The translations under genes and the position numbers were made by a program. The notes below the pieces were generated by a model. The model did not search any database. It was not told where the DNA came from and saw nothing but the letters and a program-made list of their open reading frames with translations. Positions 33,180 through 37,653 of a stretch of DNA of 55,605 bases are shown in pieces (position 1 is the first letter of the stretch; each line of letters opens with the position of its first letter). The DNA lies in the NCBI GenBank assembly GCA_020073245.1, contig JAIQFQ010000021.1:1-55605 (forward strand), read 5' to 3'. Origin of the DNA: Terriglobia bacterium (GTDB taxonomy: Bacteria > Acidobacteriota > Thermoanaerobaculia > Thermoanaerobaculales > Thermoanaerobaculaceae).

Positions 33180-33638
33180 TTAGTGCGTGCCGAAGTCGTT
33201 GTGCTTGGCTCCGGTCACAACAGCGACGTAGATCTCCAGCAGGGCTTGCTTGAGTGGGTCCGATTCAGCCACGAAACGTACATCCATCTCGCGGATCTGC
33301 CTCTTGGCGTCGCTGTAGGCGGCTCTGAAGTCGGGGTCAGTCAATAGCTCTTTCTGGCCTCCCGCCTTCTTGTAGGCTGGCGGGTGCCGGGTTGCTTCTC
33401 TGGCGAGACGCCAAGCGAAGGGACAGTCATCCGCAGTTGCATCCACGTGGGCCCTAAGTCGGTCCCTTATCCTCCGCTTCGTTCTGCCGGCATAGAGGTG
33501 CTGCCCACCCCTCGAGAACATGTATACGCCGCCCTGTGGGCCCAGCGGCGCGGTGTCGATCGTCACAGGTTCCATCGCCATGAGTTCCTCGTACTTCGCG
33601 TGCAGGCTGTTGACGACCCCGGCGAATCGAGCGTCCAT
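33180..33638 (-). CDS. GIY-YIG family nuclease-like protein
   Basis: A 152-residue cytoplasmic protein. The ATG at 33638 follows AAGGAGG by 4-5 nt. The GIY-YIG core is visible: GGVYMFSRGGQHLYAGRTKR (GVY at 37-39, LYAG at 48-51), followed by RIRDRLRAH with the expected Arg. Glu135 in LLEIYVAV is a candidate metal-binding Glu near the C-terminus. It begins 85 bp after the end of the HEPN-like gene on the same strand and is probably the last gene of the restriction-methylation operon. GIY-YIG folds serve in homing endonucleases, restriction enzymes and repair. A nuclease effector or accessory role is inferred. Confidence 0.75.
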   Translation of the reverse strand: MDARFAGVVNSLHAKYEELMAMEPVTIDTAPLGPQGGVYMFSRGGQHLYAGRTKRRIRDRLRAHVDATADDCPFAWRLAREATRHPPAYKKAGGQKELLTDPDFRAAYSDAKRQIREMDVRFVAESDPLKQALLEIYVAVVTGAKHNDFGTH

Positions 33639-33722: not shown

Positions 33723-34400
33723 CTAAGGTGGCAACAGGGCCTTTAGCTTGTCGCGCAGCGTCTTGCCGCCGCATGTTACGCACAGACGAAAATGTAGGTC
33801 TTCTGGGTATTCCGCAACATGGGCACCCGCTTTCTTGTTGTTCTTCGTGTTGCGAGGCCATTCTTGGAAAACCTTGCTCACTTTGGGGGTTATGGACGGA
33901 TCGGCGAACGCGAGCCTTTCGAGTCGGAGCATGACCTCGAGCGTTCCGAGGTTCCGGGACGATTCAAGCGCCGTGCGCCAATCCGCGCCGAAGAGGATCT
34001 CCCCATACTCAAGAAGCTCGCAAAACGCCTCCACGCAGTTGCGGGAGGTTACGCTCAGGTCGAGCAGGCCGGCCGAGTGGAAGAAGTCGTTGCGTCGCAC
34101 GCGCCGTTTGGAAAGCGCAGCCTGAAGACCATTCACCTCCTCAGAGTGAACTGCCATCTTCATGGCAACAACGTTCTTCACGTCTCGCAGGACGTCGGGG
34201 TGATTCTTGAAGTGGTCGTTCGGCTTCTTATCCGTCCACTGCGGATCATCCGTTTGTAGGAACAGCTTCGAAACCAGCTCCCCGTAGTCGTCGCAGAGAA
34301 TAAACGCCGTCTTCAGATACTGGCCTCCAGTGCGCCCTGTGTAGTAGATTTCGACACCGGCACAGATTTCATCCACCAAGTAGGTCAGTGACGGGTTCAT
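33723..34400 (-). CDS. HEPN-like protein coupled to the S subunit
   Basis: A 225-residue cytoplasmic protein, mostly alpha-helical. It contains R-N-D-F-F-H (Arg103 to His108), an Rx4H motif with a polar residue right after Arg, as in HEPN-domain ribonucleases. The helices on both sides (KMAVHSEEVNGLQAAL and LSVTSRNCVEAFCELLEY) suit a four-helix HEPN fold. The C-terminus has a CxxC (LCVTCGGK). The ATG at 34400 overlaps the S-gene stop codon (ATGA), so it should be translated only after S. HEPN RNases are common in toxin-antitoxin and abortive-infection systems. A backup effector linked to the restriction-methylation system is plausible but not shown. The family match rests on the motif and predicted helices only. 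Confidence 0.6.
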   Translation of the reverse strand: MNPSLTYLVDEICAGVEIYYTGRTGGQYLKTAFILCDDYGELVSKLFLQTDDPQWTDKKPNDHFKNHPDVLRDVKNVVAMKMAVHSEEVNGLQAALSKRRVRRNDFFHSAGLLDLSVTSRNCVEAFCELLEYGEILFGADWRTALESSRNLGTLEVMLRLERLAFADPSITPKVSKVFQEWPRNTKNNKKAGAHVAEYPEDLHFRLCVTCGGKTLRDKLKALLPP

Positions 34401-35764: not shown

Positions 35765-35824
35765 GCCCCGCCTGACGGCAAAGCACGGCGCCTTGCCCGG
35801 CTCGGCGGGGCTTAGACGAAAAAA
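35765..35824 (-). promoter_or_regulatory. Candidate programmed -1 frameshift site joining RM and S
   Basis: On the minus strand the RM frame reads CCT TTT TTC GTC TAA. T-TTT-TTC (35824-35818) is a slippery heptamer in the correct phase. The 6-nt spacer GTCTAA holds the stop. GCCCCGCC (35811-35804) then pairs perfectly with GGCGGGGC (35772-35765) across a 31-nt loop that can itself fold (GGCAA/TTGCC). Slipping back one base enters the S frame exactly. The same pattern would also arise if one T of the run were missing from the assembly, or lost by mutation. Confidence 0.65.
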
Positions 35825-37653
35825 GGTCGTGGGTCCTTCTCAAAGACGCGGTACTGGTGAGCGACCTCGGGCAACTCATTTGCGCACTTGTGGCCGGTGG
35901 CGTCGTACCCAATCTTCTCCGGTGCAGCCATAAAAATGGCTTCGCTGTCTCTTGGTCTTTCGCCCTCGCCGCGGCGGCGCAAGAAGGTGAGGCTCGCCTT
36001 GACGCCCGCTCCAAAGTGGGCGAAGGCGGTTTGCGGCAGGCTGACAACGGCGAGGAGCTGGAAACGTTCGAGTAGGAAGTCACGGACGTATTGCAGTGAG
36101 GAGTTGGTGAGGATGCCATCGGGCAGAACTACAGCGGCGCGACCCGTGCCAGGTTTGAGGAACTGGTACACGCGCTCGACAAAGAGGATCTCCGTCTTCT
36201 GGGTTTTGCGGGGCTTCCTGGTTCCCTTGGCGTCCTCTTGGTTCCCAAGCTCAAAATCACTCAGGTAGGGACGCTCTGTGAGGTTGACCTGAGAACCGAA
36301 GGGAGGATTGGTCAAGATCAGATCGAATGCGGCTTCCTTGAATCCGTTGTTAGCAGTGCGCTGGCGAATAGCGGAGGGGCGATCGAGGGCGTCTTCTCCG
36401 GCGATGTTGCTGTGCCCGTCGTCGTGGAGGATCATATTCATCTTGGCGACACGAGCGATTTCGTCGTTGATTTCAATGCCGAACAGGCGCCTCTCGGCGA
36501 AGTCATGCCAGTACCTGTAGTGGTCCTTACCCTCATCGATCCCGCGTTGAGGATCGCCCTTTTGGTCCGGGTAGTAGTCGTCGGCTTCCCTACGTAGGTG
36601 ATCCAGCGCGAAGAGCAGGAAGCCCCCGGAACCACAGGCGGGGTCGAGCACCAGGTCGTCGGCCTTCGGGCTCAGCATCTCGACAGCGAAGGCGATGATC
36701 TCGCGCGGGGTGAAGTACTGGCCAAAGTCACCCTTGAAGAACCCGTCCATGAACTGCTCGAAGGCGACTCCCTTGGTGTCCAGATCCGTCTTGCTGAAGC
36801 TGACTGCTTCCATGTGCGACACGAGGATGCGGAGTGTAGCGTCGTCGATCCGGATGGTGTCGGTGAAGACCTGGGGGTCGCGCTCCCGGGCCTGCTCGTA
36901 AATGGCTTTGATGCGTTCGGCTAGTTTCCGGGCTGGTTCGTGCGTCTTGATCTGGAATTCGTAGGGCTGGCCGTTCTTCCGCGCGGTTCGCTCGTCCTGG
37001 ATCTTGACGAAAAGGAGCTTGCAGAGTTCGCCGAAGGCCATCGGGGGCGACAGGCGTCCACCGCCCCAAAGGGTTTGATGGCATTTCTTGATCGTGGCGA
37101 TCAGCGTTTCCTTGCTGACGCCCTGGATATCATCCTTGGTCCCCTTTCGAAATCGCCAATCCTCGGGTCTTCCGTACTGGCGGGGCAGGTCGGCGATGAT
37201 GTTGGCCTCACGCTCCAGGACACCGTATTTCCCGGAGTAGTCCAAGAACCGACGGGTCTGGCCCGCCACAACACCGACATATTGGGCGCGGAACTTGGCC
37301 CACGTGCCGTTGCCGCAGGCCTGCTCGACGGCCTGGCCGAATTCAGCGTCAGTGACGCCGTCGCGCTTGCACTCGATGACTGCGAAGGGACGAGTGCGGG
37401 CGTCGTTAAGGAAGACAACAAGGTCGGCGGCGTCCTTGGGTGTCCGGTCTGGGACGGTGACCTCGACCCCGATGCAGGAGGGTTCGTACCCGTAGCGGAA
37501 GATCAGCTCTGCCCAGTACGCGGAGCGAACCTGCTCCTCGGGGTCGGAAAACCGTTCAGAGTGGTTAGCCGCAACGTAGGTGATTCGCTGTCTTGTCCCC
37601 TCACCGGAGATGGTGGCGTAGCCCTTCCCGATGGCTTGCTCGAGATATGTCAT
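35812..37653 (-). CDS. Restriction-methylation (RM) protein: PD-(D/E)xK-like domain plus N6-adenine methylase
   Basis: A 613-residue DNA methyltransferase with a nuclease-like N-terminus. The ATG at 37653 has a GGGAG about 8 nt upstream; the earlier in-frame ATGs give a Cys/Ser/Arg-rich extension. Residues about 40-130 resemble the HsdR N-terminal domain, with candidate catalytic Asp77 and the ECK triad Glu94-Lys96 (FAVIECKRD). Residues about 200-600 are a type I M-like gamma N6 methylase, with the SAM motif DPACGSGGF (337-345) and NPPF (449-452). A single RM polypeptide with a separate S subunit is the BcgI (type IIB) layout. No HsdR helicase is nearby. A frameshift site at its end could fuse it to S. 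Lower GC than the flanks suggests acquisition by transfer. Confidence 0.88.
   Translation of the reverse strand: MTYLEQAIGKGYATISGEGTRQRITYVAANHSERFSDPEEQVRSAYWAELIFRYGYEPSCIGVEVTVPDRTPKDAADLVVFLNDARTRPFAVIECKRDGVTDAEFGQAVEQACGNGTWAKFRAQYVGVVAGQTRRFLDYSGKYGVLEREANIIADLPRQYGRPEDWRFRKGTKDDIQGVSKETLIATIKKCHQTLWGGGRLSPPMAFGELCKLLFVKIQDERTARKNGQPYEFQIKTHEPARKLAERIKAIYEQARERDPQVFTDTIRIDDATLRILVSHMEAVSFSKTDLDTKGVAFEQFMDGFFKGDFGQYFTPREIIAFAVEMLSPKADDLVLDPACGSGGFLLFALDHLRREADDYYPDQKGDPQRGIDEGKDHYRYWHDFAERRLFGIEINDEIARVAKMNMILHDDGHSNIAGEDALDRPSAIRQRTANNGFKEAAFDLILTNPPFGSQVNLTERPYLSDFELGNQEDAKGTRKPRKTQKTEILFVERVYQFLKPGTGRAAVVLPDGILTNSSLQYVRDFLLERFQLLAVVSLPQTAFAHFGAGVKASLTFLRRRGEGERPRDSEAIFMAAPEKIGYDATGHKCANELPEVAHQYRVFEKDPRPFFV

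Follow-up and report, generated by a model that had tools for sequence, protein, structure and literature searches.

How is a specificity (S) subunit made when its conserved N-terminus is encoded without a start codon? The question is raised by a locus on the minus strand of a Terriglobia bacterium contig (GenBank assembly GCA_020073245.1, JAIQFQ010000021.1, positions 1 to 55,605; this whole 55,605-nt stretch is the window below), where a restriction-modification (RM) gene ends in a stop and the frame of its S subunit runs on at -1. A sequence-only reading of the window had taken the junction for a -1 frameshift signal. The comparisons below support that reading, and we regard it as very probable that predicted -1 programmed frameshifting makes a 613-aa RM protein plus a 1085-aa RM-S chain from these features:

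37653 (ATG) to 35812, minus strand: RM gene, 0 frame, 613 aa, ending DPRPFFV* (open reading frame, Pfam)
35834-35838, minus strand: possible upstream stimulator AAGGA, Shine-Dalgarno-like, 9 nt 5' of the heptamer, suggestive only
35824-35818, minus strand: putative slippery heptamer T_TTT_TTC, in phase with the RM frame (sequence; T_TTT_TTY in 65 of 80 loci)
35817-35815, minus strand: codon GTC after the heptamer (sequence)
35814-35812, minus strand: 0-frame stop TAA, one codon past the heptamer (sequence)
35811-35804, minus strand: 5' arm of the stem, GCCCCGCC, the outer six pairs being the conserved core (sequence, fold, alignment)
35772-35765, minus strand: 3' arm of the stem, GGCGGGGC (sequence, fold, alignment)
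35818 to stop 34399-34397, minus strand: S frame (-1), 473 aa after the slip (open reading frame, model, matches to S subunits)
35818-35711, minus strand: part of the S frame without ATG, GTG or TTG, yet conserved (alignment, codon-position differences)

The RM product matches an HSDR_N_2 nuclease-like domain (PF13588, E 6.9e-9) and an N6 methyltransferase domain (PF02384, E 1.4e-38) in a Pfam scan, and carries ADLVVF...VIECK, presumably the motif of the nuclease-like domain, and DPACGSGGF with NPPF, presumably those of the methyltransferase. A nuclease and an N6 methyltransferase are thus predicted in one RM chain, as in type IIB enzymes of the BcgI/BsaXI kind. The protein had been likened to BcgIA, a resemblance that holds but not for BcgIA alone, the closest solved relative of the RM part being BsaXI RM (E 5.8e-42). 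The S frame is laid out as a linker (RLSPAEPGK..CFAVRRG..), two target-recognition domains (TRDs) and two long helices; in the model of its 473 residues (pLDDT 89.9, pTM 0.84) the TRDs are separated by the helices, confidence is among the lowest over the first 40 residues, which lie closest to the shift (block means 62-75), and the frame has matches along S subunits, PacII S and BsaXI S first, then others. This modelled two-TRD S is again what a BcgI/BsaXI-like type IIB enzyme would have. The protein is type IIB-like by its domains and differs from BcgI and BsaXI in how S is joined: the predicted RM-S chain would read DPRPFFRLSPAEPGK across the junction. The gene is not the single open frame of a single-chain type IIG/IIB RM-S enzyme, since TAA 35814-35812 intervenes and S lies at -1, nor is it a coupled hsdM-hsdS pair with a start overlapping or adjoining the upstream stop, the codon at that place in the window being CTA. 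Assignment to the MADS defence system (MAD2/MAD5) was rejected, RM scoring 330 bits against an NCBIfam cut-off of 720 and S 50 against 400. As to the separate HsdR translocase gene of a type I system, five nearby ORFs scanned with Pfam gave no match of any kind.

Downstream, a 225-aa gene (window 33723-34400, minus strand) overlaps the S stop (ATGA) and has no Pfam match; its RNDFFH we take to be an Rx4H motif as in HEPN ribonucleases. Homologues of this gene follow S in six other loci (L007, L008, L009, L041, L046 and, in two pieces, L085), and the rearranged L074 is followed by a fragmented copy. The next gene in this direction encodes a 152-aa protein (window 33180-33638, minus strand) with a sub-threshold match to a GIY-YIG nuclease (E 0.032) and no homologue in the homologous loci at E <= 1e-5.

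The end of the RM gene, read on the minus strand, is GAC CCA CGA CCT TTT TTC GTC TAA, and the 8-bp stem follows it, so that the in-phase T-TTT-TTC, the 6-nt spacer (GTCTAA) and the stem that had been described at the RM end are all present. Equally confirmed are an S frame open at -1 through the site, with no ATG, GTG, TTG or CTG upstream of TTG 35710 (its first ATG, GTG or TTG, 36 codons in), and a combined length of 1086 codons including the stop (612 + 473 = 1085 aa). The junction therefore has the parts expected of a frameshift site: an in-phase X_XXY_YYZ at the end of the upstream frame, a predicted structure after a 6-nt spacer, within the usual 5-9 nt or so, and an open coding -1 frame. 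The pattern TTTTTTYGNNTRASCCCCN{25,55}CGGGGS, which describes heptamer, spaced stop and both arms, matches once in the window and in none of 100 shuffles of it, and once in the 4.38-Mb genome, where the reversed control pattern has no match. Taken alone the window hairpin is moderately unusual (z -2.12, with 7 of 200 dinucleotide shuffles equally good; z -2.24 against synonymous-codon shuffles, with 2 of 200 as good). It is conservation, not the local fold, that raises the site above chance.

Homologous loci were fetched from bacterial genomes by the RM protein alone, and sorting the best 80 of the 190 with a relative by their RM C-terminus gave 65 with T_TTT_TTY and S at -1. Other heptamers stand at the same place in four (A_AAT_TTT in L076, L080 and L084; C_CCT_TTT in L082) and the non-canonical G_GTT_TTT in one (L070). 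Three loci are in frame (L063, L068 and L081, the last with a deletion across the junction), and in four the next ORF has its own start: L055 with an ATG just past the RM stop in the 0 frame, L065 with a GTGA overlap, L075 with an overlapping ATG, and L078, where that ORF is not S-like. Of the remainder, L074 is rearranged and the contigs of L054 and L057 stop short of the site. Going by the titles of their records and their labels in the tree, the 65 loci span Planctomycetota, Chloroflexota, Bacillota, Pseudomonadota, Cyanobacteriota, Thermotogota, Nitrospirota, Acidobacteriota and others; most are metagenome bins, whose labels may be wrong, and a few are near-copies (L017/L019, L032/L033). 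Named isolates that carry the site include Caldimonas caldifontis (L048), Novosphingobium mangrovi (L056) and Yanshouia hominis (L062).

The family is sparse in the window's own phylum, where a gene at E <= 1e-80 occurs in 2 of 297 genomes, the window's own included. At E <= 1e-60 relatives appear in seven plasmid records and one phage record, at most 46% identical; of four plasmid matches inspected, three are annotated as single N-6 methylase genes and one (L091) has an overlapping S. Adding the window and L087, the one RM-family locus found by protein in viral contigs, to the 65 loci gives the 67 sites analysed below. Among the RM-only proteins listed by the protein search, 117 of 118 end in FFx, and the residue before FF at the 67 sites is P in 53, S in 6, D in 3, H in 2, and R, L or N in one each. 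Because these sites were chosen for their heptamer, a codon tally over them cannot test it, the unselected set being the 80-locus sorting; T at the third place of the codon before FF was likewise part of the selection and is not counted as evidence. Elsewhere in 66 of the RM genes (38,670 codons), T_TTT_TTY falls in phase 16 times and any in-phase X_XXY_YYZ 159 times.

The frame that a shift would open is conserved before it could be initiated. Across phyla it begins with RL[ST]P...FAV.RG..RLD or a near-form, and differences in codons 4-28 fall on codon positions 1, 2 and 3 in the numbers 304, 205 and 568 (56 close pairs, 33 loci); the same test gives 146, 115 and 259 (28 pairs) for the 25 of 67 loci that have no ATG, GTG or TTG in the first 25 S codons. 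The -1 frame is thus under protein-level selection from the slip point on. Since the first 36 -1 codons of the window encode conserved protein without a start codon, the shift would be the likely main route to S, and the RM-S fusion looks like more than an option next to free S.

The strongest of the alternatives, which we nonetheless consider improbable, is that S is a separate protein started inside its own frame (at TTG 35710 here) by re-initiation or internal initiation, the heptamer being incidental. A free S begun at TTG 35710 could preserve both TRDs, since the S model gains confidence only at about residue 40; relatives that lack the heptamer rely on starts that overlap or lie close by (L055, L065, L075 and the plasmid locus L091); and in 13 of 67 loci the second -1 codon, usually one that overlaps the RM stop, is itself a start (9 ATG, 3 GTG, 1 TTG), so that re-initiation may add free S in some of them. 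In L055 (ATG) and L065 (GTGA) we possibly see natural swaps of the shift for initiation. Yet initiation of this kind would need no conserved heptamer or hairpin and would leave a conserved protein encoded ahead of any start in the -1 frame; the second -1 codon is CTA, ATA, CTG or GTA in 53 of 67 loci (CTG, in 8, not counted as a start), and in 8 of 67 the first ATG, GTG or TTG comes at S codon 60 or beyond, which the window's model places within the first TRD. With a start at the stop in those 13 loci only, conventional coupling was set aside as the principal source of S. The reading that fits these observations best remains a frameshift.

We next consider the hairpin. Both of its arms are coding in the -1 frame (they hold the invariant P4 and G18 of alignment A2), and for that reason the synonymous codons of that frame were shuffled, with the first three codons fixed, 200 times per site at the site and 60 times per site in control windows. 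Over 66 RM genes and 64 folded sites (L039 and L067 skipped; L071 left out), the real fold is better than the shuffle mean at 64 of 64 sites, with a mean z of -2.36; z lies below -2 at 36 sites and above it at 28. Control windows at +60, +120, +200, -100 and -250 codons have mean z of -0.16, -0.09, -0.45, -0.58 and -0.12, with 1-8 of their 61-67 sites below -2, and at -100 codons 51 of 66 sites are negative. An uninterrupted stem of at least 6 bp is present in 64 of 67 sites and one of 5 bp in L011, L012 and L024.

Covariation points the same way. In an alignment (A1) of 58 of the 67 sites—those left out have long loops (L025, L035, L040, L041, L042, L077) or cut or recoded frames (L039, L067, L071)—88.4% of the cells of the 8-pair stem are paired against 79.9% in shuffles, 49 cells are altered on both sides against 23.4, and the covariation score is reached by none of 500 shuffles; sliding the stem by one column lowers pairing to 57-62%. 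The two inner pairs of the window stem are poorly kept, one being unpaired in 27 and the other in 19 of 58 sites; within the six-pair core, three pairs are invariant and hence uninformative. The clearest covariation is in the outer pair, C-G in 39 and G-C in 15 of 58, and in L030 much of the stem is altered, to CCCCAGGT/ACCTGGGG. These results indicate selection on the hairpin beyond the encoded protein. An intrinsic terminator seems unlikely here, as the hairpin lacks a following T run on either strand, judged by eye. The sequence-only reading had named conservation of heptamer, spacer and stem in homologues, as against plain fusions, as its check, and there it holds up: T_TTT_TTY in 65 of 80 loci, a stem of at least 6 bp in 64 of 67, covariation, and synonymous-site selection.

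There are also hints of an upstream element. Of the 67 loci, 36 have a Shine-Dalgarno-like 4-mer 4-17 nt 5' of the heptamer, the rate in control windows being 11%; part of this excess stems from conserved KD residues. Where the codon at the element specifies K, E or Q (49 cases), its last base is G in 37, the expectation being 24.3 (z 3.9, the best of eight positions tested), and the codon just 5' of the NNT has the opposite trend (z -3.4). We put AAGGA forward as a stimulator only tentatively.

The heptamers that replace T_TTT_TTY are themselves telling. The most efficient -1 motifs in Escherichia coli include H_HH.U_UU.Y, where H is U, C or A (as given in the part of the survey consulted, PMC4066793), and T_TT.T_TT.Y, A_AA.T_TT.T and C_CC.T_TT.T all belong to this class. 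Selection on ribosomal slippage would predict that one slippery heptamer can give way to another while the frame relation stays the same; selection on the protein or on a homopolymer would not. Five loci (L070, L071, L076, L080, L084) have open frames only if TGA is read as glycine (code 25), which gives RM proteins of 591-600 aa and -1 frames of 433-460 aa; in L082 the -1 frame has 480 aa under the standard code. The code-25 loci keep the shift site, which would thus persist under what is probably a different genetic code. The label of L070 is Peribacteria, a group in which code 25 is unexpected, so that either the label or the code assignment may be questioned. The G_GTT_TTT of L070 resembles what we take to be the heptamer of the PRRSV nsp2 site. 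The nsp2 signal directs both -2 and -1 shifting (in the portion of PMC4937337 covered).

This turnover bears on a further alternative, slippage of RNA polymerase on the T run to give mixed mRNAs, some of which would encode RM-S in frame. T6C is a homopolymer run, and transcriptional slippage is a known alternative at A/T runs (in the part covered of PMC3711429), but A3T4 (three loci) and C3T4 (one locus) are not long homopolymers and yet keep X_XXY_YYZ, and the downstream RNA stem is under selection; we judge this explanation quite unlikely. Only a very slight probability attaches to an assembly or sequencing indel or a decayed fusion gene, since the homopolymer run indeed sits in one draft assembly of 89 contigs but 65 of the 80 loci, drawn from many assemblies and with a few near-copies among them, share T6Y with S at -1, which at the level of the family rules out assembly error or a private mutation. 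Phase variation, in which slipped-strand changes of the T run would toggle split and fused genes, as methyltransferase genes can be phase-variable through homopolymers (likewise PMC3711429), is hardly credible against a run of T6 or T7 with constant frame relation in 65 loci and the non-homopolymer heptamers that replace it.

If ribosomal frameshifting joins RM to S, relatives that keep the two in one frame should be instructive. A protein search with the 1085-aa product returned, among its best 120, 48 proteins longer than 760 aa that were taken as RM-S fusions, 39 of which carry PF01420. Several of them run from RM straight into sequence that the window encodes at -1, such as P0122 (KNPKPSPIKTLISEKKPQCFAVRRGEVLERLDPKF), which has the same join kept in frame, with CFAVRRGEVLERLDPKF shortly past the RM end; in L063 FFR is in frame as TTC TTT CGC, the T run interrupted, with the RM frame broken further upstream in the assembly. 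Forty-six of the 48 are 768-908 aa long (42 at 825-854), which by size is RM plus one TRD, and only two are longer, P0227 and P0216. The model of P0227 (1065 aa, in frame, same layout; pLDDT 84.3, pTM 0.74) has BsaXI as its best fold match and a low-confidence linker, residues 599-626, between RM and S; as the S N-terminus of the window is likewise uncertain, the shift would probably land in a flexible tether.

The number of TRDs, judged by length, separates the two forms. All 57 complete frameshift cases have an S of 454-491 aa, a two-TRD size, against a one-TRD-sized S in 32 of 34 in-frame fusions (33 of the 48 proteins plus L068). Loci with a cut or interrupted S were dropped from the count: L026, L066 and L073 are interrupted, L044, L049 and L058 have -1 frames of 222, 290 and 239 aa near contig ends, and L036, L039 and L067 complete the list. 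Six further loci (L070, L071, L076, L080, L082, L084), with 433-480 aa, fit the two-TRD pattern. Both forms are scattered over a tree built quickly with FastTree from 108 RM domains, some of its branches being long, and supported branches force at least 16 changes between them; of 11 phylogenetically independent pairs 10 agree with the association, none opposes it and one shows no difference (sign test p 0.002). P0216, a two-TRD in-frame fusion, has the frameshift locus L067 as its sister row. The shift is not indispensable for two-TRD enzymes, because two in-frame two-TRD fusions exist (P0216, P0227).

These observations suggest a mechanism. Part of the ribosomes would slip back one base at T_TTT_TTC, probably because the two Phe tRNAs slip in tandem on UUU UUC, with the hairpin and perhaps also the upstream AAGGA as stimulators, so that RM-S is made beside RM, with a flexible tether linking the RM and S parts. 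One RM-S chain could then take up one free RM, which would bring two RM units together with two TRDs as (RM)2S; in the one-TRD relatives an in-frame fusion would already supply one RM per TRD. One mRNA yielding both RM and RM-S would make the frameshift ratio, in place of a separately translated S, the means by which subunit ratio is set, with a shift efficiency near one half for an exact 2 RM : 1 S, or less if RM were in excess.

The design may extend to a second gene pair. A DNA pattern search of 2.9 million viral contigs, run blind, gave 15 matches, one of which is the RM family (L103, on the same contig as L087). The other 14 (L092-L102 and L104-L106, several near-copies) each mark the end of an ORF of 339-433 aa that is unrelated to RM; four were examined (L092, L096, L097, L099), and there the ORF encodes a Mu-type portal protein with a MuF-like head protein in the -1 frame, which is the basis for recognizing the same U6-stop-hairpin design there. 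The likeness of heptamer, stop and arms is by construction, because the pattern fixes them; the open -1 frame and the gene pair are not fixed by it. At L092:1746-4252 (plus strand), T_TTT_TTC, G, a stop and a CCCC hairpin stand at the portal/MuF-like junction. A portal-MuF frameshift fusion in Mu-like phages is possible, and a fusion made in smaller amount would make sense; the authors of PRFect mention MuF-like genes as fusions (in the part of PMC10885494 covered).

Taken together, we lean, with some reserve, towards a wider reading: a cross-phylum RM family, annotated as separate M and S genes, that is made by frameshifting with a slip ratio near 2 RM : 1 S, in which TRD number and recoding signal co-evolve, and whose near-identical U6-stop-hairpin module also serves the portal/MuF pair of Mu-like phages. 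RM systems need a safe subunit balance, and a conserved signal would, if true, be a built-in 2 RM : 1 S control. It would also add a cellular gene class to bacterial -1 frameshifting, best known from mobile elements, and explain why two-TRD enzymes are split by a stop and one-TRD enzymes fused; and the DNA-recognition half would be missing from many of the 'restriction endonuclease subunit M' and 'N-6 DNA methylase' entries in databases that end in PFFV.

Among the papers listed by searches of open-licence literature we found no description of frameshifting between RM and S, and no RM case appears in the portions covered of the GeneTack survey (PMC3711429), a survey of heptamers in E. coli (PMC4066793) and a review of recoding (PMC5009743). 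The PRFect authors, in the part of their paper covered, count methyltransferases among phage genes known to contain a frameshift (PMC10885494), which could touch the novelty of the present case. What we describe is the predicted use of a known recoding mechanism in a gene class for which the literature searched holds no record of such recoding.

Among characterized systems, the window pair is like the type IIB enzymes BsaXI and BcgI in having a nuclease and a gamma-type methyltransferase in one RM chain and a two-TRD S. BsaXI assembles as (RM)2S (PMC11997821) and BcgI as 2RM:1S (PMC3874165), by the parts of those reports covered. In both, S is separate and has its own frame, whereas the window S lacks a start codon at the conserved N-terminus, and a predicted frameshift signal joins it to RM. 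The predicted frameshift product, with RM and S in one polypeptide, is like the single-chain type IIG/IIB enzymes AloI, CjeI and TstI, which differ in being continuous genes that give the fusion only. A mixture of the kind proposed has an artificial parallel in the EcoKI HsdM-HsdS fusion made by mutagenesis (Roberts et al. 2012), which is active in vivo without added HsdM and when purified needs extra free HsdM (portion covered of PMC3510504); a frameshift making RM and RM-S would supply just such a mixture of M and MS, although natural EcoKI has overlapping, coupled genes. For the NsoJS138I C-REase fusion, -1 frameshifting has been considered (in the part covered of PMC3850674), and there it would release a short C protein, a product that was not seen. 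In mechanism the predicted signal is like the -1 frameshifting of dnaX and IS elements, where an X_XXY_YYZ heptamer is combined with a downstream structure and in some cases with a Shine-Dalgarno-like sequence upstream. The dnaX gene yields two forms of a single protein, both for one complex. Unlike these, the RM family has mostly U_UUU_UUY rather than A_AAA_AAG, the shift would make the longer, fused form, and the gene is that of an RM protein.
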